A DNA stretch of 33,796 nucleotides from positions 1 to 33,796 of the IMG/VR virus record IMGVR_UViG_3300008117_004422; one strand, given 5' to 3'. Shown piece by piece: positions 3,148 to 22,504 of the stretch; within the stretch, counting starts at the first letter, position 1, and each line of letters starts with the position of its first letter. This stretch comes from a virus. The position numbers and the translations under genes are program-made. A model generated the notes under the pieces. That model had not been told where the DNA came from, did no database searches, and was given only the letters and a program-made list of their open reading frames with translations.

Positions 3148-3176
3148 ATTATATATAACTTAAATATAGTTGTCAA
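3148..3176 (-). promoter_or_regulatory. Perfect-consensus sigma70 promoter, TTGACA-N17-TATAAT
   Basis: On the minus strand TTGACA (3171-3176) and TATAAT (3148-3153) are separated by 17 bases, a full consensus match in both boxes and spacing. The cyclotransferase ATG at 3139 lies only eight bases beyond the -10 box. Transcription should therefore begin at or next to the A of the ATG, giving an essentially leaderless mRNA. The -35 box abuts the start of the divergent radical SAM gene. Confidence 0.75.
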
Positions 3177-3178
3177 CT

Positions 3179-4327
3179 ATGGAATGTAAATTTTTGGATC
3201 ATGGGTTAGCAATTGCTTACCAAGAAACGGTAAAGCCGTGTTGTACCTGGCAATTTGATGAAAACTATAAGTCAACTCATCAACTTGAACGTGTAAATTT
3301 AGTTACATGGCACAAAAATAAAGATATTCAACACGCAAAACATTTACTGAGTCAAGATATCTGGCCCAAGAATTGTTCTTTCTGTCAAGAATCAGAAACA
3401 CAGGGTAGATCAGACAGCATGAGATTGAATGCAGCAAGTTCTTATGCTGCGTATGGCAACGACGACATCACTCTCGAAATTAGACCTGGGTCTGTCTGTA
3501 ACTTTGCTTGCCAAACTTGTTGGCCAGCTGCCAGTAGCAGAGTCAGCGAATATTACCGACAGGCACAAATAAAATTAGAAAAAAAAGAATATTCTTCATC
3601 AGTAGATACTAATCAAAAATTTAATTTTAACAACTTTGATTTCTTGCAGCCTATATCACATAGGATCAAGTCTGTGGTGCTACTAGGAGGCGAACCATTT
3701 TATGATAAAAACTGTTTGGCTTTTTTAGATTGGTGGCACAATAATACCAATTCAGAACTTATGGTATTTACAAATGGATCCAATATCAAATTTGATTTAC
3801 TTGAAAAAACCAAAAACAAAATTACTTTAGTTTTTAGTTTGGATGCAATAGGTAAACCTGCTGAATACATAAGGTTTGGCACAGAGTGGAATCAAGTTTG
3901 TTCTAATTTTAACAAGTCACGTCAACTAGAAAATGTAGATGTAAGAGTTAATATCACTCAGTCTGTTTACAATTATTATTACTTAGACAAACTGATAGAA
4001 CTATTAATAGACGATTGGCCCAGCTTGGTTACCTTTGGTATGGTTTATGAACCCCACTTCAACGAATCAGTAATACCCAAAACACATAGACAACCAGTTA
4101 TAGCCAAACTTGAAAAACTTGTTGACAAATTAGATAAGGCAAATATAGAAGAAAATCAAAAACACAATGCCGTTAATGCAATAGCCACAACTATTGGCAA
4201 TTTAAAACAATTTGAGTTTGACGAAAATAATTGGAAGAAATTCAAAGACTTTGTTACTAAAATGGACCATGTCAAAGGAATAGATATTAGACAGTATTGT
4301 CCAGAGGTGGCTACGTATATATATTAG
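3179..4327 (+). CDS. Twitch-type radical SAM protein
   Basis: A plus-strand protein of 382 aa from the ATG at 3179; a TTG at 3170 is also in frame. CNFACQTC at about residues 107-114 is the CxxxCxxC motif that binds the radical SAM 4Fe-4S cluster. It is preceded by Cys pairs (KPCCTW, NCSFC) typical of twitch or auxiliary-cluster radical SAM proteins. GGEPF around residue 180 fits the SAM-binding region, and LVFSLDAIGKPAEYIRFG is typical of the family. The substrate is unknown. Twitch-type proteins are, as I recall, frequent in T4-like aquatic phages next to sugar genes. It diverges from the cyclotransferase and its 3' end overlaps the asparagine-synthase-like gene by 17 bases tail to tail. 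Confidence 0.82.
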   Translation: MECKFLDHGLAIAYQETVKPCCTWQFDENYKSTHQLERVNLVTWHKNKDIQHAKHLLSQDIWPKNCSFCQESETQGRSDSMRLNAASSYAAYGNDDITLEIRPGSVCNFACQTCWPAASSRVSEYYRQAQIKLEKKEYSSSVDTNQKFNFNNFDFLQPISHRIKSVVLLGGEPFYDKNCLAFLDWWHNNTNSELMVFTNGSNIKFDLLEKTKNKITLVFSLDAIGKPAEYIRFGTEWNQVCSNFNKSRQLENVDVRVNITQSVYNYYYLDKLIELLIDDWPSLVTFGMVYEPHFNESVIPKTHRQPVIAKLEKLVDKLDKANIEENQKHNAVNAIATTIGNLKQFEFDENNWKKFKDFVTKMDHVKGIDIRQYCPEVATYIY

Positions 4328-5459
4328 TCAAATTTTCCAGGAAGTTACCGGTATTTTTGTTGGTAGAAAGAGTGTTTAACAAATGAGGAGCGTTTCTCTT
4401 TATTAACTCTTTTTGAACAGTACTATCAAAAATTTGATCTATAAGATCTTGTTTGCCCATCGAAGCCACTGTTTCAAATATTTCAAGATCTCTAAAAGGA
4501 GTATAAACCATTGTATGGCCCAAATGCCAGTGCTGGTAATCGTTTACAATCATGTTAGAACATTCTTGTATGACCTGGCTCAGTGTTTCATACTTAAGCT
4601 TGTTTTGAGACTTGAAAAGATCTATATATCTTGAAAAATACAAGTAGTGTAAACTATTTTTATAGTCAGGTAATAATTCATCAATACCAGTATCATAATA
4701 CCTCAATAGCATATTTGCAGTAGTAGGACTTCTTGCTGTAAATTCATCACCAGGTGCACCAGACATCAAAATACACGGCTTTGACCAATGGTGTATTTGC
4801 CCAAATCCCCAAAAATTAGATAATGTATAATGATTTTTTAAATAAAAGTAATCTAAATCTGTATGGAAATAGTTTACCAATTGGTGGGGTATATTTAATT
4901 TTAAAACATATGAATACAATGTGGTTGTATCAATCCCTCCACTAAGAAAGACGTTTAGTGGCAATAAATGATGTTTGAAAAACGTTTCAAGTTTGAGTTT
5001 TATAATATGATCAACTTTTGTTACACAGTCATCAAATGATAAATTTTCAAAATGTTTGCTATCAACTAAAACAAACTTAGACTCAATTTTTTCCAAATTG
5101 TCTGTTAACATAACAAAGCTGTCTGTGTGTATCAAATCTCCGTCTCCGTGAAGATTTGTCAAACAGACTTTGTTATAATACATTGGAAAACTTCGGTACC
5201 TATCAGTCTTGACAGTGACACCTTGATTAAAACATTTGATCAAACAAAAGTTTCCTGTTAGAAAAGGCTCTTCTTGACGAGCTATGTCCAAAATAAAATC
5301 TTCTATATTGCCTTTGTCTAAATACCCTTTATAAAATATAGTGTTTCCGTGTTCATCGTAGGCTGTTTTCCAACCGTGATCTAAATTAATGAACAAATTG
5401 TTGTGTTGATAATTATAAGGAAAATTATCTAGCTTAGAATTACAAATCTCAAAAAACAT
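4311..5459 (-). CDS. Asparagine-synthase-like ATP-pyrophosphatase protein
   Basis: A 382-aa minus-strand protein. The PP-loop NVFLSGGIDTTTLYSYV is at residues 169-185 (SGGxD signature), and ILMSGAPGDEF at about 230-240 matches the conserved GDE region of asparagine synthases. The N-terminal half keeps traces of a class II glutamine amidotransferase fold (GNFCLIKCF, KTDRYRSFPMYY) but lacks the N-terminal catalytic Cys; it begins MFFEIC. It may use free ammonia or another nucleophile, or adenylate a carboxylate for amide formation. It overlaps hldD by 11 bases and is the last gene of the sugar operon, which suggests sugar or glycan amidation. A RiPP-type cyclase role is a less likely alternative. 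Confidence 0.72.
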   Translation of the reverse strand: MFFEICNSKLDNFPYNYQHNNLFINLDHGWKTAYDEHGNTIFYKGYLDKGNIEDFILDIARQEEPFLTGNFCLIKCFNQGVTVKTDRYRSFPMYYNKVCLTNLHGDGDLIHTDSFVMLTDNLEKIESKFVLVDSKHFENLSFDDCVTKVDHIIKLKLETFFKHHLLPLNVFLSGGIDTTTLYSYVLKLNIPHQLVNYFHTDLDYFYLKNHYTLSNFWGFGQIHHWSKPCILMSGAPGDEFTARSPTTANMLLRYYDTGIDELLPDYKNSLHYLYFSRYIDLFKSQNKLKYETLSQVIQECSNMIVNDYQHWHLGHTMVYTPFRDLEIFETVASMGKQDLIDQIFDSTVQKELIKRNAPHLLNTLSTNKNTGNFLENLTNIYT

Positions 5460-6237
5460 TAAGAGTCTCTTTTAATTTTGTCAAATCTGCACAAGTATAA
5501 GTTTGGTAACTGTGGCTTAAATGTTCAGGAAATGGTATTTGTTCAATCAATGCCCCATATTGATTGGCAATACCTTCAGCCACTTCTTTAAAACTTCTAG
5601 TGGTACCTGTACCAATGTTCCAAATTCCGTTTTCATCTATGTCTTGATTGATAAATTGAAATTGTACTCCCAACACATGATCTACTGAAATAAAATCTCT
5701 ACGGAAATTTTCGCTGCCTTCAAACACTTTTATAATTCCAGTGGATTGTGCTTGAATACTGAATTGATGATACGGGCTGGCTTGACTACCCTTGTGGGCT
5801 TCATTAGCACCATAGACATTAAAGTATCTAAATCCTTGGCACCGAACATGTGTCGGATGATGTTGTACATAGTGTTCGAAGAGATATTTTGACCACGCAT
5901 ATGGACTTCGCGGATCAACCGGTGCGGACTCTCTAAAATCCTGGCCAAGGCCATACACGCTCGCAGAGCTTGACCATTGAAGATTGACGTCATGTTTTCT
6001 ACATTCCTCGTAAAGCCACACACTAAAATCGTAATTTTGTCGCATTACCCGAGCGACATCACGCTCAGTAGTGCTGCTAATAGCGCCAAAATGAAATACC
6101 CAGTCTAGTCCTTCTATTCTTGGTAGTGTGCGTTCTTCCCACTCATAGGTATATATTTCGTGGTCGCCCAATTTGTGCCAAAAACTTACTGCGTGGCTCC
6201 CAATAAAGCCTCTACTTCCGGTTATTAATATTTTCAA
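5449..6237 (-). CDS. hldD: ADP-L-glycero-D-manno-heptose 6-epimerase (HldD-like)
   Basis: A 262-aa extended SDR enzyme that interconverts ADP-D- and ADP-L-glycero-D-manno-heptose. The NAD(P)-binding GSRGFIG is at residues 7-13, and the catalytic Tyr/Lys pair is YAWSK at 113-117. HldD-specific stretches are visible: GAISSTTE, RYFNVYG, HKGSQASP, FEGSENFRRDF, IWNIGTGTTRSF and IPFPEHL. E. coli HldD is about 310 aa, so this copy is shortened, mostly at the C-terminus. The start is TTG, overlapping the adenylyltransferase gene by 26 bases. Neighbouring heptose genes strongly support the call. Confidence 0.88.
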   Translation of the reverse strand: MKILITGSRGFIGSHAVSFWHKLGDHEIYTYEWEERTLPRIEGLDWVFHFGAISSTTERDVARVMRQNYDFSVWLYEECRKHDVNLQWSSSASVYGLGQDFRESAPVDPRSPYAWSKYLFEHYVQHHPTHVRCQGFRYFNVYGANEAHKGSQASPYHQFSIQAQSTGIIKVFEGSENFRRDFISVDHVLGVQFQFINQDIDENGIWNIGTGTTRSFKEVAEGIANQYGALIEQIPFPEHLSHSYQTYTCADLTKLKETLNVF

Positions 6238-6631
6238 TTATTTTACTCGTTGAATAATTTTTTACTAGTTCGTAGTATTTAATTTCATCACAATACTGGC
6301 GGCCTGTAATTGGTCGACCTTGATAATCGCTACCTTTTACCATTAAATGTGGCTTATAGATTTTACAGATGTGCTCTAGTTCTTCCTGTGTGTCAAAAAT
6401 CCAAACAGCGTTTACTGCCTTTAGATTTTCAAGTTGAAATTTACGATCCTCTTGATTGTTGATTGGACGGCTGTCGCCTTTTAATTCACGTACCTGACGA
6501 TCACTATCAATGGCCACTAACAAATAGGTTCCTTGACTTCGAGCAAAATTGAGCATTTCAATATGCCCGCGATGCAAGATATCAAAGGTACCGTTAACTA
6601 TTACTCTTCTGACTATCCCCAGGTTGTACAC
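6212..6631 (-). CDS. hldE: Heptose 1-phosphate adenylyltransferase (C-terminal half of HldE)
   Basis: A 139-aa protein of the cytidylyltransferase-like superfamily. VNGTFDILHRGHIEML contains the HxGH nucleotide-binding motif at residues 20-23. KGDSRPIN followed by EDR, and STSKII near the C-terminus, match the adenylyltransferase half of HldE. It would join D-glycero-beta-D-manno-heptose 1-phosphate to AMP, giving ADP-heptose. I accept a GTG start at 6631 because GAGG lies eight bases before it and no ATG precedes the HxGH region. It overlaps the cupin gene by 38 bases. In E. coli this domain is fused to the kinase; here the two are separate genes. Confidence 0.8.
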   Translation of the reverse strand: MYNLGIVRRVIVNGTFDILHRGHIEMLNFARSQGTYLLVAIDSDRQVRELKGDSRPINNQEDRKFQLENLKAVNAVWIFDTQEELEHICKIYKPHLMVKGSDYQGRPITGRQYCDEIKYYELVKNYSTSKIIENINNRK

Positions 6632-6962
6632 GATAATTGTCCTCTACAGAATCTGGTGTGGAAACTTCTACTACAGTACCTTCTTGTAAACATACCAGTT
6701 GATGTGGCATGCAAGGTGGATTATGCCATACTGCACCTTCAACTAATATCTGCTCATGTTGTTCGGCGGTCTTGGTGTCAATCCAACGTACAACAAATTG
6801 ACCAGATTGAACGTACCATGTTTCTTCTTTTTCTCGATGAAAGTGCATGCTGAACTTGGCACCGGTATTAAAGTGCATCATCTTGCCGCAATATTTTTCG
6901 TTAGTGGCCCATATTAATTCATGTCCCCAACCTTTTTCTACATAACCTTCTAGTCTTGTCAT
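6594..6962 (-). CDS. Cupin, phosphomannose-isomerase-type
   Basis: A 122-aa single-domain cupin beginning MTRLEGYVEKGWGHELIW. Metal-binding positions are visible in FSMHFHREKEETWYV (His40, His42, Glu46/47) and in the later PHQL. The GWGHE start and overall pattern resemble the cupin half of type II mannose-6-phosphate isomerases. It may isomerise a sugar phosphate, but the substrate is unproven. It sits between the heptose kinase (ATGA overlap) and the adenylyltransferase (38-base overlap). A similar nucleotidyltransferase and cupin pair is fused in one protein at 21752..22504, which supports a functional link. Confidence 0.75.
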   Translation of the reverse strand: MTRLEGYVEKGWGHELIWATNEKYCGKMMHFNTGAKFSMHFHREKEETWYVQSGQFVVRWIDTKTAEQHEQILVEGAVWHNPPCMPHQLVCLQEGTVVEVSTPDSVEDNYRVQPGDSQKSNS

Positions 6963-7690
6963 ATTTGTTCTATTTCTGCTAATGAAGGACTATACACACC
7001 AATGTGTTGAATAGTCACGCTGGCTGCTCGAGTAGCAAATCTAATAGCAGCTAGTATATCCGAAGATAAAACGTAGTTGTATGCGAGAGCAGACAAAAAA
7101 GTATCACCTGCTCCGCATACATCAAACGCCTCTACTTGTGGAGTAGAAAACCGGTGTTCTTTATATCTTACACCATCCCGACCAAGGGTAACAATAAGGT
7201 CAGTAGGATATGTTTTAGCAGCTTCAAATTCGACTTGGTTGATTTTGACGAAACATCCCTCGAAGCGGGCCAAGTCGCTTTTCTTTGTATCAACAAATAT
7301 CGGACCCGAATAATTCTTGCGAAGAGCTTCGACAGTTTCATACTCTATTGAACCTTTGTTGTAATCACTAACAATAATAGCATTATACTGATCTATGTTG
7401 GTGTAGTCAATTTTTACGGCTTTACTAGGAATGTCTTGATCTATCCTGACAAGATGTTGACCTGTCTTGCTATCGATTACTCGAGCCTTGATACAGGTTT
7501 TGACACCATGTACAAAGTCAACTTCACAACCTAACTTTTCTAAATTGTCTTGAACATTAGCTGCCATGCCTGGTTTGGTTACGGTGTGTGTATAGTTTAA
7601 CACAGGTACAGGTGCTTCAGGACTTATTCTAGTCACTGTTCCAAATTGGTATTGATCAATACCGTTGTCGCCTACTAACAAAATTTTCAT
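6959..7690 (-). CDS. hldE: Heptose 7-phosphate kinase (N-terminal half of HldE), PfkB family
   Basis: A 243-aa ribokinase/PfkB-family protein. The N-terminus MKILLVGDNGIDQYQFGTVTRISPEAPVPV carries the RISPEAPVPV signature of HldE. KPGMAANVQDNLEKLG is the substrate-binding region, and FDVCGAGDTFLSALA is the PfkB active-site motif with catalytic Asp and anion hole. It would phosphorylate D-glycero-D-manno-heptose 7-phosphate at C1. It is shorter than the ~318-aa kinase domain of E. coli HldE. It overlaps the upstream GT9-like gene by one base (TAATG) and the cupin by ATGA. Confidence 0.85.
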   Translation of the reverse strand: MKILLVGDNGIDQYQFGTVTRISPEAPVPVLNYTHTVTKPGMAANVQDNLEKLGCEVDFVHGVKTCIKARVIDSKTGQHLVRIDQDIPSKAVKIDYTNIDQYNAIIVSDYNKGSIEYETVEALRKNYSGPIFVDTKKSDLARFEGCFVKINQVEFEAAKTYPTDLIVTLGRDGVRYKEHRFSTPQVEAFDVCGAGDTFLSALAYNYVLSSDILAAIRFATRAASVTIQHIGVYSPSLAEIEQI

Positions 7691-8439
7691 TAAAAATATT
7701 GACAGTTGTCTCTAGGAAAATAACATTCGTTGTTGGCTAAAGGTTTGATTTTGATTGTTTCAAGTACTGAGGCTTTGCCTAGTCCCATGGCAATACTGTA
7801 GGCAGCACTTTGATTGCCCATAAACAAATCTGCACCGGCTATAATGTCTGCCATTTGTTTAAAGTCCCGCACGGGATGATATTTTACGGCAAATCCAGTG
7901 ACCTTTACAAAATCTTCATGCTCTTCCGGAGTACCTACAAAGATGCCGTTGTTTACAATGTCAGACTGCGCCAAGATATTTTGCCAACTTCCATTGCCTT
8001 GTGGGCAACGGTATCTAAATGTTCTGTTAATAACAATAGGTGCCACTCGAACAGGATCTGCTTCTAACCAAGTTTCGTTGTAGACTTCTGGAGTAAATGG
8101 CAAATTAAATGTTCGATAATATGCTTCCACATAGTTGCCTTCGAAACCTCTAAATAGCACGCCGCGAAATCTATCTAGATCTACCTCGTGGTCACCGGTC
8201 CAGAATGTCACATATTTGATATAACTTTGTCTACTCAGCAAAGGTCTCAGCATGTCAAAATCGGCATTACGAAATCTACCCTTATGTGCAGGGTCTACTT
8301 CGTCTGGTCTATAGCCATATTGTGCCACACACTTTTCTAAATTCTCAATATGGATAGCAAATGTACCTCCGCCCATTTTCTTAACTACAGATAAACTGTA
8401 GATTAAATCTCCAAATGTGCCCGAGTGTCTAAATATCAT
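7690..8439 (-). CDS. GT9-like glycosyltransferase (heptosyltransferase-related)
   Basis: A 249-aa protein beginning MIFRHSGTFGDLIYSLSVVKKMG, which fits the GDxIxSLP-type N-terminus of GT9 heptosyltransferases. Near the C-terminus ADLFMGNQSAAYSIAMGLGK corresponds to the GxDSGxxH nucleotide-binding region, with Asn-Gln in place of the usual Asp/Ser. Members transfer heptose from ADP-heptose to LPS core sugars. It is shorter than typical family members (~320-350 aa), so it may be a divergent or minimal form. It overlaps the next GT9 gene by ATGA. Confidence 0.7.
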   Translation of the reverse strand: MIFRHSGTFGDLIYSLSVVKKMGGGTFAIHIENLEKCVAQYGYRPDEVDPAHKGRFRNADFDMLRPLLSRQSYIKYVTFWTGDHEVDLDRFRGVLFRGFEGNYVEAYYRTFNLPFTPEVYNETWLEADPVRVAPIVINRTFRYRCPQGNGSWQNILAQSDIVNNGIFVGTPEEHEDFVKVTGFAVKYHPVRDFKQMADIIAGADLFMGNQSAAYSIAMGLGKASVLETIKIKPLANNECYFPRDNCQYF

Positions 8440-9308
8440 AATAGTTCCAAAATATTGTTTGCAATTTTTTCTGCATCAAAATTATCCTTACAACGGAAAT
8501 CGCCGTGTTTGCATACAACTTGGCTCACTGGTCTTTGTTGATAATCATTGCAACCTACACAATCCACACTTGATAAAATAGGAACAGCATTTTTATGCTT
8601 AGGTAAAATTCGATCTGGCAGTAAATGTGTGTGCAGTGAAATCATTGTTGTTTCACTAGCACTGGCGATGTGATAAGGGCCACTATCGATGCCAACAAAG
8701 CAACGAGCGTGATCCATTAATAATTTTTGTTGTTGTACGCTTAACTTATCTCTGGCATCGACAAACAGTGGGTGTTCTACGAACCCATCTTGTACTGTAC
8801 CTACACAAACAATCTTAAAATCTGTACGTACATTAAACAAGATTTCAAATACCTTATACCAAGTATCCCATGACATGTTTTTTAAAGGCCAGTACCATTG
8901 TCTAATATGAATAACTATATATTCGTCAATAATGTTATTTTGAAAAAAATTATTAACTATTTCTGCATCTTGATTTGACGTGAACAGTTCTGGTTCTTGA
9001 TTATCCACCGTTGATGTTCCAAAAGCACGATAGAAATAACTGTCCAAGTAATGATTGAGAGGATTATTTTCGTAGGAATCATCCAGATTAATATATAGAT
9101 CATATGTAGAAGGGTCTGGCATGGCACTGGTATGATAAATTGCCCTCACATGAGGATTATTATCGTACACATTAGGAAACTCTGTTGCGACATCAATATC
9201 ACAAATGTATCTGTTTTTTAATTCGCGTACCACTCCGGTGCTCATAATTACGTCGCCTAGTGCTGCACGCCTGCGTACTAAAATCTGTGTTGGTTTTTCA
9301 ATATTCAA
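8436..9308 (-). CDS. GT9-family (ADP-heptose) glycosyltransferase
   Basis: A 290-aa protein with clear GT9 features. RRRAALGDVIMSTGVVRELK at the N-terminus is the acceptor side, IVIHIRQWYWPLKNMSWDTW comes mid-protein, and ARCFVGIDSGPYHIASA contains the nucleotide-sugar-binding DSGPxH motif. A cysteine-containing C-terminal part (DCVGCNDYQ, CKHGDFRC) is unusual and may bind metal. The start is a TTG at 9308, preceded by GAGG within the end of the methyltransferase gene. Together with the HldE/HldD homologues it suggests transfer of heptose. The acceptor is unknown. Confidence 0.8.
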   Translation of the reverse strand: MNIEKPTQILVRRRAALGDVIMSTGVVRELKNRYICDIDVATEFPNVYDNNPHVRAIYHTSAMPDPSTYDLYINLDDSYENNPLNHYLDSYFYRAFGTSTVDNQEPELFTSNQDAEIVNNFFQNNIIDEYIVIHIRQWYWPLKNMSWDTWYKVFEILFNVRTDFKIVCVGTVQDGFVEHPLFVDARDKLSVQQQKLLMDHARCFVGIDSGPYHIASASETTMISLHTHLLPDRILPKHKNAVPILSSVDCVGCNDYQQRPVSQVVCKHGDFRCKDNFDAEKIANNILELL

Positions 9309-10509
9309 CTTCTACCTCAGGGAAATAACGGAGGAATCTATCGTCGGGCATTTGTCGCACACTGCATATCTTAGATTTTATTTCTGTGTAAACATTCCAT
9401 GCCAAGGGAATGAATAAGACGCGATCTTTATCTGTTAATTCATTGAGATAATCTGAACTAACAACAGGAATATCTCTACCCGGACTATATGTTCCTTGTT
9501 TCAAAGGGTTATCATCAATTATAACATCAAGGTCAACTTGTGCATAGTTTAATAGTGTCATTCCCTTGGCAGCAGCACCGTATCCTACTAGTCGATATCC
9601 TGATTCTCTGTATTCGTGACAAGTAGCAGCAAAATCGTTTTTAATTTCCTCTGCCACACTTACCCAACGAGAATAAACTTTTGGATTCATTAAATCTGAC
9701 TCCATTGCTAACAGATTCTTAACATGTTTGGGTTTTAAATTGCTGGTACTTAATACAAACACATAGCTGGTTCCGTGTATAGGAGTTTTAACAGCATCTA
9801 CTAGATACATATCGGCCCGGCGAGCCAATTCATACATTGAGTTGATGTTATAAAAATTAACATGCTCATGATATACGGTATCAAATTCTCCATTACGTAC
9901 CATGTCTGCTTGGCTAGTTTGTATAAAAAATAATCCCTTTTCTTTCATTAATGGTGCAAGCAATTTTAGGTACTTGACTGGATCAGGATTATGTGCAAAT
10001 GAATTTTGAGCAACTACGATGTCAAACCTGTCATGTGCTAGTTGTTTGATACTTTTCTTATCCCAAAATCCGCAAACTATTCGATGACCTTTTGCAGAAC
10101 TTGTTGCATATAAATTTTCTGCCGGGTCTACTCCGTATGTGTTGAATCCTAAACTAGCAAAGGCATCAAGTTGACTACCATCGTTGCAACCAATGTCTAA
10201 TACATGCCCTCGCCAACGATCTGAGTACTCTCTACACCACTTGGCGAACCAACGCATATAATCTAAATACGTTTGACTTGTACCACTTACATAAGCGTAG
10301 TCTCGATAGATAATTTCAGGATCTACCACATGAGTTAATTGTAAGTGACAACACGCAGTACAACGGTTTACTGCCAATGGATAAGTTTCATTTTTACCAG
10401 GATTAGATAAAAAATTATTAGCTAACGGTTGCTCGCCAAGATTTAATTCTAATTTGAGATCAGTACTACCGCAGGCTAAACATTCATTTAGTTCTATGCA
10501 ATTTTTCAT
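9298..10509 (-). CDS. Zinc-binding SAM-dependent C-methyltransferase (sugar C-methyltransferase type)
   Basis: A 403-aa protein. The N-terminal zinc-binding Cys pairs are ECLAC (10, 13) and RCTAC (50, 53), followed by HVLDIGCNDGSQL as the SAM-binding loop, YHEHVNFY as a likely catalytic His region, and GYGAAAKGMTLLNY in the C-terminal Rossmann-like domain. This three-part layout is that of NDP-sugar C-methyltransferases such as the TylC3 type, which methylate 4-keto sugars. The ATG at 10509 is chosen because it follows the upstream stop by one base; the longer frame would overlap that gene. An RmlB-like enzyme in the same operon could supply a 4-keto substrate. Confidence 0.8.
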   Translation of the reverse strand: MKNCIELNECLACGSTDLKLELNLGEQPLANNFLSNPGKNETYPLAVNRCTACCHLQLTHVVDPEIIYRDYAYVSGTSQTYLDYMRWFAKWCREYSDRWRGHVLDIGCNDGSQLDAFASLGFNTYGVDPAENLYATSSAKGHRIVCGFWDKKSIKQLAHDRFDIVVAQNSFAHNPDPVKYLKLLAPLMKEKGLFFIQTSQADMVRNGEFDTVYHEHVNFYNINSMYELARRADMYLVDAVKTPIHGTSYVFVLSTSNLKPKHVKNLLAMESDLMNPKVYSRWVSVAEEIKNDFAATCHEYRESGYRLVGYGAAAKGMTLLNYAQVDLDVIIDDNPLKQGTYSPGRDIPVVSSDYLNELTDKDRVLFIPLAWNVYTEIKSKICSVRQMPDDRFLRYFPEVEVEY

Positions 10510-10510
10510 A

Positions 10511-11221
10511 TTAATTTTTGATAGGCACACCATTCGGGGCAATAAAGCCCTCAACACCTAGTAAAGGAATTTCTTTTACTAATTCTTGCGGTAAAAATTT
10601 ATACAACACATGTTCAATATCTGCGTAACCGCCTTGGCTTACACGGTTGCCGATATAAGCTAGACTATCTTCGTAAACTTTAATTACGGTATCAAGTTGA
10701 GCAGCAGGCCACGACCATAATCTAGCCATGTACTGTAATTCAATTCCGGTTACATGTAACGGAAACTGACTTGAATGTTTTGGCCCAATGATGATTTGGT
10801 CGGGGTATTGTTCGTAAATGCCTAAATCAAAATCATCATTTAGTATATATCTACCGGACATTTTATGAATTCTATCGTATCCTATAAAGTCTCCGTCATT
10901 TTTGCAAATACGTAAAGTTCTACCAAAACACATTATCTCAGTTGAATTTTTAACCACGTCCCAATTGTCGCTTTGATAAATTGCACGAACATCTAGGTCA
11001 TTGCTGAAGTCTATTAAAAGATCGCAGTTGTCCTCTAGTGTTTGACTTTGGTTAGAACTAATCGGTGTACCAGCACATTCCATAACAACGATTTTGGCAT
11101 CAGGCACTTTAAATCTAATGTTCTGTAATGTAATTACAGTCTGAGCTAATCTTTCTTCTGGGCTATAAATTCCAAATTTGCTATTTACTGCACTTGTAAC
11201 TATAAAACAGTGTTTGATCAT
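10511..11221 (-). CDS. Unknown sugar-operon protein, possibly glycosyltransferase-like
   Basis: A 236-aa protein starting MIKHCFIVTSAVNSK. An early beta-alpha pattern (AKIVVMECAG, CDLLIDFSND) and a central YDRIHKMSGRYILNDDFDL suggest a nucleotide-sugar-binding fold, since K-x-SGRY is reminiscent of some LPS glycosyltransferases. I cannot assign a family. It sits between the RmlB-like dehydratase (ATGA overlap) and the C-methyltransferase (one-base gap), so it almost surely belongs to the glycan pathway. No membrane segment or signal peptide is present. Confidence 0.65.
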   Translation of the reverse strand: MIKHCFIVTSAVNSKFGIYSPEERLAQTVITLQNIRFKVPDAKIVVMECAGTPISSNQSQTLEDNCDLLIDFSNDLDVRAIYQSDNWDVVKNSTEIMCFGRTLRICKNDGDFIGYDRIHKMSGRYILNDDFDLGIYEQYPDQIIIGPKHSSQFPLHVTGIELQYMARLWSWPAAQLDTVIKVYEDSLAYIGNRVSQGGYADIEHVLYKFLPQELVKEIPLLGVEGFIAPNGVPIKN

Positions 11222-12252
11222 TTACGCAACCATCTTTCATTTTTTAGTGTCCACTCGACCATTTCCTTAATACGCTCACTTAATTTAATTTTTGGTTCCC
11301 ACCCCAATGATTTTAATAATCCGCCGTCTAGTGCATAACGCATGTCATGCCCAGGGCGACTGCTGTGAAAATCGGTCATTTCATATTTGAGTTCTCGACC
11401 CACTGCTGCTGCGATCATTTGTGCTAGGGTAAGGTTATCAATTTCTTCAGTACCGACAAGATTAAACTTGGGGCAGTGTGCGTGTCCGTAATCCCCTTGG
11501 TGACGATAATTCTCGAGGCCGAGTATGAACATAAGACCCTCAGCAACATCTCTGGCATGGATATACATTCTACTACCAGCCACGGTTCGCGTTGGATCAC
11601 TGTGTATGATGACTGTTTCCCCATCTCTTACCTTTTGAATAGTAGCCGGAATAAACTTTTCCGGATGTTGTCGCTCACCAAACACATTCATTGTATGCGT
11701 AACGACAATAGGCATCTTGTAAGTGTTTTCATATGCAACACAGAACTCTTCTGCAGCCGCTTTGCTAGCAGAATAGGGATTAGTTGAGTTGTATCGGTCA
11801 TATTCTTTATAAGCCACGCCAGGCGGTGCAATGCCGTATATTTCATCGGTGGAAAAGTAAACAAAGCGTTCCAGATTAGGATGATTTTTTCTTGCATAGT
11901 CTAATAGGTTAACAGTGCCCACAACATTGTCTTGTACAAACTCCATAGGATAGGCAATTGAACGATCTACGTGACTACCAGCAGCAAGATGTAGGATGAT
12001 ATCTACTGGTCCAATGTCGTGTACAATTTGGCTGTTAATTTCGGCTTTGAGATCGTGAAATACAATACGTAGACGCTGGCTGACCATTTTGGCATCATGA
12101 TCTTGTAGCATGTCATGTAGTCTGTTTAAATTGCCAGAGATGTCTAATCTGTCTAAACAAATGATATGCCAGTCTGTGGTTCTTAAAACTAAATCAATTA
12201 CATGATGCGCGATAAATCCAGCACCGCCAGTGATTAATACTTTTTTTGACAT
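11218..12252 (-). CDS. dTDP-glucose 4,6-dehydratase-like extended SDR
   Basis: A 344-aa protein of full family length. It has GGAGFIA at residues 9-15 for NAD binding, HLAAGSHVDRSI, FSTDEIYG at 133-140 with the Asp-Glu pair of RmlB-type dehydratases, and the catalytic YSASK at 160-164. EKFIPATI and RPGHDMRYALD also follow RmlB. It would oxidise and dehydrate an NDP-hexose to the 4-keto-6-deoxy form. The nucleotide and sugar are not certain. It is the first gene of the minus-strand sugar operon, with a GAGG ribosome binding site and an AATAAATA late-promoter-like motif 27 bases upstream. Confidence 0.82.
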   Translation of the reverse strand: MSKKVLITGGAGFIAHHVIDLVLRTTDWHIICLDRLDISGNLNRLHDMLQDHDAKMVSQRLRIVFHDLKAEINSQIVHDIGPVDIILHLAAGSHVDRSIAYPMEFVQDNVVGTVNLLDYARKNHPNLERFVYFSTDEIYGIAPPGVAYKEYDRYNSTNPYSASKAAAEEFCVAYENTYKMPIVVTHTMNVFGERQHPEKFIPATIQKVRDGETVIIHSDPTRTVAGSRMYIHARDVAEGLMFILGLENYRHQGDYGHAHCPKFNLVGTEEIDNLTLAQMIAAAVGRELKYEMTDFHSSRPGHDMRYALDGGLLKSLGWEPKIKLSERIKEMVEWTLKNERWLRK

Positions 12253-15533: not shown

Positions 15534-16097
15534 ATGCCACTAGGAAATCATCTATACCAATACATTTGTAATGATTTAAAAGATTATCAAGGAAACTATT
15601 TAGAAATAGGCGTGTTTGATGGTGACGGATTTGTTAGAGTTGCCACAGAATACAAAGATAAAAAATGTTACGCAGTTGATCCTTTTATTGAGGATGGATA
15701 CACTTCACTAACATCAGCTCAAAAACGTGGCAATAAATTAGACTCACAAAAACAAAGTTTCTTAAATTGCACACAAAATTTAAGTAATATTGAACATTTT
15801 GAAATGACCAGTGTAGATTTTTTTAATAATTTTACAGAACAAAAAGCCATTGAGATGAATGTTTCATTTGTTCTAATTGATGGAAGTCATCATTATGATG
15901 ATGTTGTAAATGATTACAAGTTAAGTGTAGAATTAATTAAAAAAACACGCCAAGGAATAATTGTATTTGACGATTTAGCTATCGAAGGTGTTAAAAAGGC
16001 TTTTGATCAATTCGAACAAGAATACAAAAACTATATCGTGCATAGCAGTGGTATTGGTGGTGACGCAGTATCTGTTAAAATTAATTTTCAACAATGA
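15534..16097 (+). CDS. Class I methyltransferase (Methyltransf_24-like)
   Basis: A 187-aa protein with YLEIGVFDGDGFVRVA as the SAM-binding motif and CYAVDPFIEDG. VLIDGSHHYDDVVNDYKL is a metal/His signature of the Methyltransf_24 or cephalosporin-hydroxylase-like group. It likely O-methylates a small or sugar substrate. It is the second methyltransferase in this operon and overlaps the transketolase gene by ATGA. Confidence 0.72.
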   Translation: MPLGNHLYQYICNDLKDYQGNYLEIGVFDGDGFVRVATEYKDKKCYAVDPFIEDGYTSLTSAQKRGNKLDSQKQSFLNCTQNLSNIEHFEMTSVDFFNNFTEQKAIEMNVSFVLIDGSHHYDDVVNDYKLSVELIKKTRQGIIVFDDLAIEGVKKAFDQFEQEYKNYIVHSSGIGGDAVSVKINFQQ

Positions 16098-16708
16098 ATC
16101 TACTAGAAAAAAGAATAATCGACATAACTTATCAAGAACGACTTAGTCACCTAAGTTCTACACTAAGTGCTTTGCCAATTCTTGAGGAAATCTATAATCA
16201 ACGTAAACACGATGAAGTGTTTATTTTGAGTAATGGACATGCTGGTCTTGCATTATATGTAATACTAGAAAAGTATTATGGTGTAGATCCTGTAGCTATG
16301 CTACATAAACATGGTATTCATCCTGGCAGAGATCTCGAAAATCATTTGTATTGTTCAACTGGTAGTTTAGGATCCGGATTACCTATTGCAGTTGGTCATG
16401 CACTAGCTACTCCAAACAAAAACGTTTGGTGCATGATCAGTGACGGTGAGTGTGCCGAAGGATCTATATGGGAAGCTCTGCGTTTTATCAATGATAATCA
16501 AGTTGATAACTTGCATGTTTATGCTAATTTAAACGGCATGGGAGCGTATGACATGATTGATACAAACCAATTGGCGCAAAGACTAAAAGCGTTTCTACCA
16601 AGAATCAATTTACGATTCAGCGACCCACCCAAGTGGTCGTTTGCTCAAGAGTTACTTACACATTACTATGTTCTTAAGCCAGAAGATTATGCGGAGATAA
16701 CACAATGA
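16094..16708 (+). CDS. Transketolase-like protein, thiamine-diphosphate-binding subunit
   Basis: A 204-aa protein matching the N-terminal PP domain of transketolase. It shows SNGHAGLALYVILEKYY, GSLGSGLPIAVGHALA, and the ThDP/Mg motif SDGECAEGSIWEALRF (Asp117) through NLNG at 145-148. Transketolases move two-carbon units between ketoses and aldoses; sedoheptulose 7-phosphate is one product. Two-gene transketolases usually have N-terminal subunits near 270 aa, so this one is trimmed. It overlaps the partner gene by ATGA, consistent with a heteromer. Confidence 0.82.
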   Translation: MNLLEKRIIDITYQERLSHLSSTLSALPILEEIYNQRKHDEVFILSNGHAGLALYVILEKYYGVDPVAMLHKHGIHPGRDLENHLYCSTGSLGSGLPIAVGHALATPNKNVWCMISDGECAEGSIWEALRFINDNQVDNLHVYANLNGMGAYDMIDTNQLAQRLKAFLPRINLRFSDPPKWSFAQELLTHYYVLKPEDYAEITQ

Positions 16709-17187
16709 GAAAAGAATGTGCAACTTTGTTATTAAACAGCATGGCGGAAGATCCTAGCATTCGTGTTATCACTGCCGATCTTGGATTTGGTATACTGGAT
16801 CCAATTAGAAACGCTTTTCCTGATCGTTTTTATAATGTAGGCGCAGCTGAACAACTAATGATTGGTGTTGCCATTGGCATGGCCAACGAAGGCCTCAGGC
16901 CTGTTTGCTATTCAATGAGTAGTTTTTTACTATATCGCCCATTTGAATTTTTGCGTAATTATGTCAACTACGAAAAGATACCAGTTAAACTGATTGGCAG
17001 TGGACGTGACCGTGATTACAGTCACGACGGTGTAAGTCACTGGGCGCACGACGACGAATTGGTACTAGAGGCACTACCGTATATTGGATTATTCAAACCA
17101 GGTAGTATAGTTGATTTGGAAAACATATGGGAAAGATTTATCAACAGTGAATATCCAGAATATCTCAATTTGACAAGAAAAATATGA
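16705..17187 (+). CDS. Transketolase-like protein, pyrimidine-binding subunit, no C-terminal domain
   Basis: A 160-aa protein matching only the central pyrimidine-binding domain. VITADLGFG, NVGAAEQLMIGVAIGMANEG with the catalytic Glu49, and SHDGVSHWAHDD are the domain's typical motifs. The third, regulatory C-terminal domain of transketolase is absent, so the pair totals about 364 residues against ~620-670 for the usual enzyme. It shares ATGA overlaps with the neighbours on both sides. Together the two subunits hold the expected active-site parts. Confidence 0.8.
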   Translation: MRKECATLLLNSMAEDPSIRVITADLGFGILDPIRNAFPDRFYNVGAAEQLMIGVAIGMANEGLRPVCYSMSSFLLYRPFEFLRNYVNYEKIPVKLIGSGRDRDYSHDGVSHWAHDDELVLEALPYIGLFKPGSIVDLENIWERFINSEYPEYLNLTRKI

Positions 17188-19176: not shown

Positions 19177-20037
19177 TTAGGCAAAGTCAACTACGCGAGC
19201 ATCTGTGCAACTTTTACATAAACTGTTACTTGAATAGCAAGTTTTTGCATTTTCTGTTAAAATCATTTGCATTTCGGCTCCAGTAAACAAATCCTCATAA
19301 GATTGAGTTAATAAATTTCCAAGAACATGTTTGTTATCGTAATCCATACAACACAGTACAACATCACCATTTGGTAACAGGACCGTTTGATCGTATTTCT
19401 CCGCTTTGCCGCATACTACAGGCTTTTCATGTTTGAGAACAAAATTTACTGGTTGATCCTTTACTTGTTCTTTATTTAGACTACCAGCTCTATTATGTCC
19501 AAACCAGTTGTATAACTGTATTCCTAAATGCTGTAGATCTTGATGTATTTTTCCATGGTTGCTCATGGTCATGGCTTCTAGTTTGATACCAAGATATTGT
19601 ACAATATTGCTCATGGCTCTAAACACATATTCCCATTCTTCACTATATTTCCATCCACGCATGTTACCATATTCATCAGGAAAGTGAATTGAAAATACTT
19701 CGATTTGATCTTTGTATTCGACTAATAAGTCACTGACTTCATCAACAGTTGTACTATCCCAATTGTACAAAGTGGTATAAATCGCAACATCATGCCCACG
19801 TTCTAGGGCATATGCTAACATTCGAGTACAATCAGGATTCACCCAGGCTTCGGCCATGCCACTAAAGTCTATTCTGGTATCCCATGGTAATTTGTCTACG
19901 GCAGTTTTGAAAGTTTCTAAACTCATGTATTTGGGATCATCTCGGCCATATGCATCTCTGAGATTATCTTGAGGACAAAAGTTACACATTAACGGACAAC
20001 CAATCATGGTTGTCACTTCTAAAGTAGGTCTTGACAT
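19177..20037 (-). CDS. Radical SAM protein with SPASM-like C-terminus
   Basis: A 286-aa protein. CPLMCNFCP (Cys14, 18, 21) is the radical SAM cluster motif, and LPWDTRIDFSGMAEAWVNPD matches the GGE-like SAM-binding region. The C-terminal part VLLPNGDVVLCCMDYDNKHVLGN, followed by CYSSNSLCKSC, matches a SPASM or twitch auxiliary-cluster domain. Such enzymes modify peptides, proteins or sugars; the substrate is unknown. It starts two bases after the stop of the large unknown gene at 20042. It is the second auxiliary-cluster radical SAM gene in the window. Confidence 0.84.
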   Translation of the reverse strand: MSRPTLEVTTMIGCPLMCNFCPQDNLRDAYGRDDPKYMSLETFKTAVDKLPWDTRIDFSGMAEAWVNPDCTRMLAYALERGHDVAIYTTLYNWDSTTVDEVSDLLVEYKDQIEVFSIHFPDEYGNMRGWKYSEEWEYVFRAMSNIVQYLGIKLEAMTMSNHGKIHQDLQHLGIQLYNWFGHNRAGSLNKEQVKDQPVNFVLKHEKPVVCGKAEKYDQTVLLPNGDVVLCCMDYDNKHVLGNLLTQSYEDLFTGAEMQMILTENAKTCYSSNSLCKSCTDARVVDFA

Positions 20038-21589: not shown

Positions 21590-21757
21590 ATGGACTGGCA
21601 AAGTCTTGTAGAGCGTCTGCGTGAAATGTTTCCTAATCAATCAAAATCAGAACTCGAGCAGTATATCGAAAGTAAAAACCCACAAAATGGAGCCGATGTT
21701 GAACACTGGTTACAGCAGTGGACATACAATAACAGCAAAGATTATCTAAGTTTATAA
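21590..21757 (+). CDS. 55-aa hypothetical protein
   Basis: A plus-strand frame, MDWQSLVERLREMFPNQSKS to NSKDYLSL. It has the strongest ribosome binding site in the region (AAAGGAG, eight bases before the ATG) and a late-promoter-like motif upstream. It is predicted to be mainly helical and soluble. Its stop abuts the stop of the convergent nucleotidyltransferase-cupin gene in the palindrome TTATAA. A lone plus-strand gene with its own late-type promoter could encode a small virion or assembly protein, but this is a guess. Confidence 0.75.
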   Translation: MDWQSLVERLREMFPNQSKSELEQYIESKNPQNGADVEHWLQQWTYNNSKDYLSL

Positions 21758-22504
21758 TCTTTCAATATCTTCTTCCACACACTGTTCACCGTATTGTATT
21801 TCAACAATAGTGCATGGCTTTGTAAAAGGATTTGTTAACTGATGCCAAGCATTGGCAGGCACACGCCATTCATCGTACTTGCTCAATATTTTAGGAGGAT
21901 TAGTTAAGTCACCTGGCATGGCCATGTTGATCATACAGGATCCTTCAGTAACCATCCAATATTCACTACGGAATTGATGGCGTTGCATGCTTAAAGTTTG
22001 CCCGGGTTTTACTACCAGAGTTTTTACTTTGGCACCAGGAATTTCATTAAGCACTGTGTAAGAACCCCAAGGTCTTTCTACTTCGACACTGGTCCATTTT
22101 TTTAATATATGACTACTGCTGTTGAGTTTGTCTTCACCTCCGACTCCAAACACAAATTCAACATCATCAAAGATCATCTCAGGGATATTGTCTTGATTTC
22201 TGTCGCCACCATTAGCAAAAACAATATCGTCGTCAGGAAACATTTCTTTTGTTTTACGTATTGCATCACAGGCAGTGCCATCACTGTCGTCAAATTCAAT
22301 TACACGATCTACCATGTGTAGATTGTCAAGAATTGTCATACGCTCGTGCCATGACATAAATGGCCTACCTTTCTTACGTGTAAGCCATTCATCCGAATTG
22401 AGCCCTACAACGAGCCAATCACCTAAATGATCTGCATGATTGAGATATTTTATATGCCCTGAATGTAAAGGATCAAATCCTCCAGTAGCTATTACTATTT
22501 TCAT
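21752..22504 (-). CDS. Nucleotidyltransferase-cupin fusion protein
   Basis: A 250-aa two-domain protein. Residues 1 to ~135 are a cytidylyltransferase-like domain with ATGGFDPLHSGHIKYL (HxGH at 14-17), LTRKKGRPFMSWHERM, and SSSHILKKW. Residues ~141-250 are a type II phosphomannose-isomerase-like cupin with VERPWGSYTVL, metal-site residues in SMQRHQFRSEYW, and WHQLTNP. It would activate a sugar (or polyol) phosphate with a nucleotide and isomerise a related sugar. The same two domains occur as neighbouring separate genes at 6212..6962. It overlaps the methyltransferase gene by ATGA. Confidence 0.82.
   Translation of the reverse strand: MKIVIATGGFDPLHSGHIKYLNHADHLGDWLVVGLNSDEWLTRKKGRPFMSWHERMTILDNLHMVDRVIEFDDSDGTACDAIRKTKEMFPDDDIVFANGGDRNQDNIPEMIFDDVEFVFGVGGEDKLNSSSHILKKWTSVEVERPWGSYTVLNEIPGAKVKTLVVKPGQTLSMQRHQFRSEYWMVTEGSCMINMAMPGDLTNPPKILSKYDEWRVPANAWHQLTNPFTKPCTIVEIQYGEQCVEEDIERL

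Follow-up and report, generated by a model that had tools for sequence, protein, structure and literature searches.

How does a virus that carries homologues of the kinase, adenylyltransferase and epimerase of adenosine diphosphate (ADP)-heptose synthesis obtain the heptose 7-phosphate on which its kinase would act, when no gene for the bacterial isomerase GmhA is found beside them? The question is raised by a minus-strand operon in a 33.8-kb fragment from an IMG/VR virus record (IMGVR_UViG_3300008117_004422, positions 1 to 33,796; the whole of this stretch is referred to as the window). A first-pass annotation had described the kinase, adenylyltransferase and epimerase genes together with two GT9-like genes, and all five are present, as minus-strand genes that overlap at their ends; the five-gene account was nevertheless incomplete, since it overlooked a sixth gene, encoding a cupin, at 6594-6962 between the kinase and the adenylyltransferase. 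We consider it likely that the operon makes an activated heptose and attaches it to an acceptor, with this cupin replacing GmhA. A little more firmly, we regard the cupin family (phrog_7851) and its cellular relatives as probable sedoheptulose 7-phosphate (S7P) isomerases of a second class unrelated to GmhA, one that has repeatedly been exchanged with it, is often fused to the kinase, and would provide a GmhA-free ADP-heptose route in phages and cells. The six genes, with lengths in amino acids (aa) and in order of transcription, are as follows.

8436..9308, minus strand: GT9 glycosyltransferase, heptosyltransferase-like, 290 aa (Pfam PF01075 4.2e-9; TIGR02201 6e-12; GD motif)
7690..8439, minus strand: second GT9-like GT-B protein, 249 aa (predicted fold; GD motif)
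6959..7690, minus strand: short HldE-type D,D-heptose 7-phosphate kinase (PfkB fold), 243 aa, phrog_8133 (TIGR02198 7e-43)
6594..6962, minus strand: cupin, 122 aa, phrog_7851 (PHROGs label 'cysteine dioxygenase'), predicted S7P isomerase
6212..6631, minus strand: D,D-heptose 1-phosphate adenylyltransferase (HldE C-terminal type), 139 aa, phrog_7878 (TIGR02199 1.6e-34)
5449..6237, minus strand: ADP-heptose 6-epimerase HldD, 262 aa (TIGR02197 4e-62)

The start of the cupin gene overlaps the end of the kinase gene by 4 bases. Both glycosyltransferases do belong to the operon, as had been claimed, although they are transcribed first and not after the heptose genes.

Cupin and GmhA in cellular genomes

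Searched with a cupin profile, bacterial and archaeal genomes yielded 73 loci (the iterated search profiles were built within this analysis). In Woesearchaeota, Nanoarchaeota and Patescibacteria these include an operon of the form cupin-HldD-kinase-GmhB-adenylyltransferase from which GmhA is absent. To examine replacement, HldE-kinase loci were drawn from two phyla by the kinase alone, and some 7 kb was considered to either side, or less where the contig ended sooner. GmhA was present in 35 of the resulting 60 loci and the cupin in 16, with both in none and neither in nine (Fisher p 1.4e-8, without correction for kinship). Because related genomes inflate this value, a tree-based test matters. 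The kinase tree contains 12 GmhA/cupin changes, 10 of them among the 60 loci, and even with only its well-supported branches counted, the cupin label must change 10 times or more. Of the independent pairs on the tree, none agreed and ~7 were opposite (median p 0.016).

Fusions to the kinase involve the cupin in eight loci, at either end of the kinase, and GmhA in four. The kinase-fused cupins of loci L251 and L232 were read as entire open frames, and L251 encodes kinase-cupin and adenylyltransferase-GmhB proteins, with an HldD-like gene on the opposite strand. From the replacement of GmhA and these kinase fusions we infer that the cupin acts as an isomerase on a phosphosugar. At genome level, a strong HldE-type kinase was found in 16 of the 17 cupin genomes tested, and a single one (G030) of the 11 genomes with the cupin at the kinase locus has GmhA elsewhere; exclusion is thus strict within the 60 loci and not absolute across genomes. 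Marinoscillum pacificum, considered as a clean cultured case (cupin, kinase, no GmhA), was dropped, there being no other heptose genes at its kinase locus.

Sequence and predicted structure of the cupin

Nineteen residues are invariant in 41 cupin sequences, amongst them H40, H42, E47 and H87, the ligands of a full 3-His/1-Glu-type metal site within the cupin fold. The model is confident (predicted local distance difference test, pLDDT, 92.9), and its top structural neighbours include phosphomannose isomerase 7zvm (Z 14.4) and D-lyxose isomerases (Z ~14). With regard to the PHROGs label, no cysteine dioxygenase family appears amongst the Pfam or NCBIfam matches of the cupin, and the putative cysteine dioxygenase 4qm9 is just one of many fold matches. 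In the open-access literature we found no paper tying a cupin to the GmhA step. By profile, the operon cupin also matches (95.6% probability, E 1.2e-8) part of a protein encoded elsewhere in the window:

21752..22504, minus strand: fusion of an HldE-like nucleotidyltransferase and a phosphomannose-isomerase-type cupin (PF01467 + PF01050), outside the operon

This fusion has relatives in more than 200 viral loci, and its layout is like that of ManC with a different nucleotidyltransferase.

Heptose enzymes and glycosyltransferases

Despite their matches to TIGR02198, TIGR02199 and TIGR02197, respectively, the kinase, adenylyltransferase and epimerase each score below the NCBI curated cut-off. 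The kinase, at 243 aa where ~315 is usual, is without two stretches of the cellular enzyme, and alignment with the Salmonella enzyme shows GAGD and NxxE to be retained; these motifs are invariant across 23 phage kinases, and HldA (4e84, 3e-18) is a match in the PDB. The adenylyltransferase contains TFDILHRGH, i.e. an HxGH motif. For the epimerase the best PDB match is E. coli HldD (1eq2, 4.8e-45) with motifs aligned, and YxxxK, HKGS and FEGSENFRRDF are retained in this match, the first two also in the Salmonella alignment. Loss of catalytic residues, which the first-pass annotation had named as a result that would count against its proposal, was not seen, the catalytic motifs being kept in the alignments. 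The ratio of nonsynonymous to synonymous substitution rates (dN/dS), where computable, is 0.03-0.14 for all module genes, indicating purifying selection. A truncated or decayed pathway was rejected on the basis of the retained motifs and these ratios, and recurrence of the gene set in 46 viral contigs, under purifying selection, excludes chance.

The larger glycosyltransferase (8436-9308) matches Pfam GT9 at 36.5 bits (cut-off 22), and D19 of its GD motif is invariant in 18 homologues. The smaller (7690-8439) has no Pfam match; D11 of its GD motif is invariant, and its AlphaFold2 (AF2) model (pLDDT 79.7) gives as best Foldseek matches WaaC (2h1h, 6dfe and 2gt1) and the GT9 protein 3tov, at E 6e-5 to 6e-4 with a template-modelling (TM) score of only ~0.4.

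The module in other viruses

Scanning IMG/VR identified 46 loci with the kinase. Every one of them (46/46) has the cupin as well, the genes being arranged in several different orders; most additionally encode the adenylyltransferase and epimerase, and about 20 match the window in local gene order. Homology, synteny, retained motifs and purifying selection together lend good support to a phage-encoded module for ADP-heptose synthesis and transfer, as originally put forward. SIS-type GmhA (SIS_2) was not found in the window, in seven cyanophage records (175-252 kb) or in another 18 records from phages (365 kb at most), and GmhB-type HAD was not found in the window or in the larger contigs of its clade, which may be incomplete. 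The statement that GmhA and GmhB are not in the window accordingly holds for the SIS-type and HAD-type proteins. The GmhA step itself, however, is probably filled by the cupin, and for this reason the heptose route is more complete than previously held.

In cyanophages P-SSM2, S-SSM7, S-SM2 and S-CAM1/3 the T4-GC305 kinase, GC304 adenylyltransferase, GC307 cupin and GC308 epimerase occur together, along with GC306; the cyanophage kinases are 32-43% identical to that of the window. The co-occurrence of GC304, 305, 307 and 308 has already been noted (PMC3037559), and heptose genes have been listed in a cyanophage (PMC7378029). Publication of the same gene set in cyanophages reduces the novelty of the module, which is a known kind of phage module with a probable new isomerase family inside it. 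T4-GC306 (e.g. L003:8719-9063) is labelled 'phosphoheptose isomerase' in GenBank, and in it the HAD phosphatase motifs DxDxT, T49, K94 and D103 are invariant, whilst Pfam support for HAD is weak. In L101 its motifs occur within a fusion with a nucleotidyltransferase, of which only the nucleotidyltransferase part has a Pfam match. GC306 was rejected as a GmhA, since it has HAD-type motifs and no SIS domain was found; these motifs and the L101 fusion make it a candidate GmhB instead, and its sequence suggests that the GenBank label is probably a mis-annotation. The cyanophage order adenylyltransferase-kinase-HAD-cupin is also seen in L087, L093, L094 and L135, from bins assigned to Euryarchaeota/Planctomycetaceae, which are probably phage contigs in those bins.

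Proposed pathway and alternatives

In the pathway that we propose, the operon would produce an activated heptose from S7P and attach it to some acceptor. The cupin, in the place of GmhA, would convert S7P to heptose 7-phosphate, the one-carbon homologue of the conversion of fructose 6-phosphate to mannose 6-phosphate that phosphomannose-isomerase cupins catalyse. Judged by homology, the short kinase would add a phosphate to C1, the adenylyltransferase would generate ADP-D,D-heptose and HldD would epimerise C6. Removal of the C7 phosphate (the GmhB step), preceding adenylylation, would fall to an enzyme of the host or to one encoded in the genome outside this fragment, and in cyanophages probably to the HAD-like T4-GC306. 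Homology and fold suggest that the two GT9-like enzymes would then transfer heptose to the acceptor.

A number of observations weigh against this assignment. A clear GmhA is present in 12 of 30 cupin genomes, although its absence from the other 18 also counts in favour; GmhA and cupin co-occur genome-wide in G030, G250 and G542, the latter two being genomes with GmhA at the kinase locus and a good cupin match elsewhere. The L101 cluster holds both cupin and GmhA, the GmhA adjoining a GHMP kinase, and some cupin relatives adjoin other sugar genes. Archaeal-operon and phage cupins are only about one-third identical, with the conserved motifs common to both by inspection, and the cellular genomes are mostly metagenome bins that are possibly incomplete or contaminated. 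The window's clade yielded no GmhB-type phosphatase. Finally, cupins of many functions (CapF, KdgF, Pac13) tie in structural Z, so that fold alone cannot name the reaction, and a fold search as the sole means of doing so was not decisive.

The alternative that survives best, which we nonetheless judge unlikely, is that the cupin modifies a nucleotide-heptose, as an RmlC-like C3/C5 epimerase or a ketoisomerase acting after ADP- or nucleoside diphosphate (NDP)-heptose, the isomerase always being host GmhA. In Campylobacter capsule pathways cupin 3,5-epimerases do act on heptoses, and the window also encodes a 4,6-dehydratase-like short-chain dehydrogenase/reductase (SDR) and a C-methyltransferase. 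Such a role sits poorly, however, with a cupin that takes the place of GmhA at one locus after another and forms fusions with the kinase, an enzyme acting on sugar phosphates, or with archaeal operons composed of cupin, HldD, kinase, GmhB and adenylyltransferase; the fused versions in L251 and L232 are without a dehydratase in the core. Moreover, RmlC-type epimerases are not known to need a metal, whereas the full set of metal ligands is invariant in the cupin.

Slightly less probable again is a product other than heptose, whereby the genes are functional and yield some different activated sugar, e.g. if the short kinase takes a phosphosugar of another kind. The two stretches missing from the kinase, and the scores of kinase, adenylyltransferase and epimerase below the curated cut-offs, are compatible with this; retention of HKGS and FEGSENFRRDF by HldD argues against it, as does the joint recurrence of the same functions in phages, archaea and bacteria, the archaeal ones also near GT9 proteins. 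That the genes are functionless 'stuffer' DNA, left open for cyanophage lipopolysaccharide (LPS) clusters (PMC3037559), is strongly disfavoured by the dN/dS values of the module genes and by the set staying together through gene-order changes.

Genomic context, acceptor and significance

The heptose genes belong to a longer minus-strand run, from 12252 to 4311, in which genes overlap end to end throughout. Its remaining members are:

11218..12252, minus strand: NDP-sugar 4,6-dehydratase-like SDR (RmlB-like; TIGR01181 3e-72), conserved neighbour in related loci, opening the overlapping operon
10511..11221, minus strand: conserved operon gene without assigned function, conserved neighbour in related loci; no Pfam match
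9298..10557, minus strand: C-methyltransferase (Methyltransf_13/23/14, Pfam), also a conserved neighbour in related loci, located upstream within the overlapping operon
4311..5459, minus strand: protein with an LSGGIDT motif in its sequence, possibly asparagine-synthase-like, closing the overlapping run; no family match

Amongst related loci the last of these is retained in L026 only. Other proteins of the window include a T4-type terminase, a UvsX-like recombinase and a single-stranded DNA-binding protein, the terminase being closest to those of Pseudomonas phage PA5oct-like giants (~50% identical) and not to cyanophages.

With respect to the acceptor, the module has tail-fibre or structural genes close by in P-SSM2, S-CAM1, S-CAM3 and L039, has a head protein gene close by in L048, and adjoins ribonucleotide reductase in L036 and L040. 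The tail-fibre and structural neighbours suggest virion glycosylation; with ribonucleotide reductase in others, the picture is mixed. Sf-CH8, a phage of Synechococcus WH8102, carries most of the module, and the LPS of this marine host is without heptose (PMC4515613), which makes a role in the host LPS core unlikely for Sf-CH8 and a phage-specific acceptor more likely.

Elsewhere in the window, 16094-17187 encodes a transketolase-like protein split over two genes (thiamine pyrophosphate-binding and pyrimidine-binding halves) that could supply S7P, and in cyanophage S-SM2 a transketolase-like gene lies two genes ahead of the heptose kinase. Two radical S-adenosylmethionine (SAM)-like proteins, at 3170-4327 and 19177-20037, stand on either side of the sugar gene island, and at least four small tandem paralogues of 84-93 aa, which begin with MNERI or MNQRI and finish with HFGVEE or a like sequence, occupy 285-1483.

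If the cupin does replace GmhA, a widespread cupin that currently goes by the name of cysteine dioxygenase would gain a reaction, and the HAD-like phage protein would have its 'phosphoheptose isomerase' annotation corrected. It also becomes possible to test if the 'LPS genes' of cyanophages are functional, a question raised without an answer in 2010 (PMC3037559). As GmhA is pursued as an antibacterial target (PMC11056994), an unrelated isozyme would also bear on who depends on GmhA.

Comparison with known systems

In common with the bacterial ADP-L-glycero-D-manno-heptose pathway (GmhA, HldE, GmhB, HldD), the module has a homologous kinase, adenylyltransferase and epimerase with motifs kept; unlike that pathway, the window has a cupin instead of GmhA and no GmhB found, and its kinase is ~70 aa shorter than the bacterial enzyme. 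The cupin resembles phosphomannose isomerases (7zvm, 7zvy) and D-lyxose isomerases (7nzp, 2y0o) as a small cupin domain (Z ~14, root-mean-square deviation 1.7-2.5), but identity is 15-24% and its predicted substrate is the seven-carbon homologue. With the GT9 heptosyltransferases WaaC, RfaF and RfaQ the larger phage transferase shares the GT9 domain, and both phage transferases the GD motif, WaaC being the best fold match for the smaller enzyme; in contrast to these, the phage proteins may act on an acceptor other than LPS core, and the smaller is a 249-aa protein with a low TM-score. With the cyanophage cluster the window shares genes for the adenylyltransferase, short kinase, cupin and HldD, whereas the window's clade is without HAD-like GC306 and places its genes in the order kinase-cupin-adenylyltransferase-epimerase behind two GT9-like genes.

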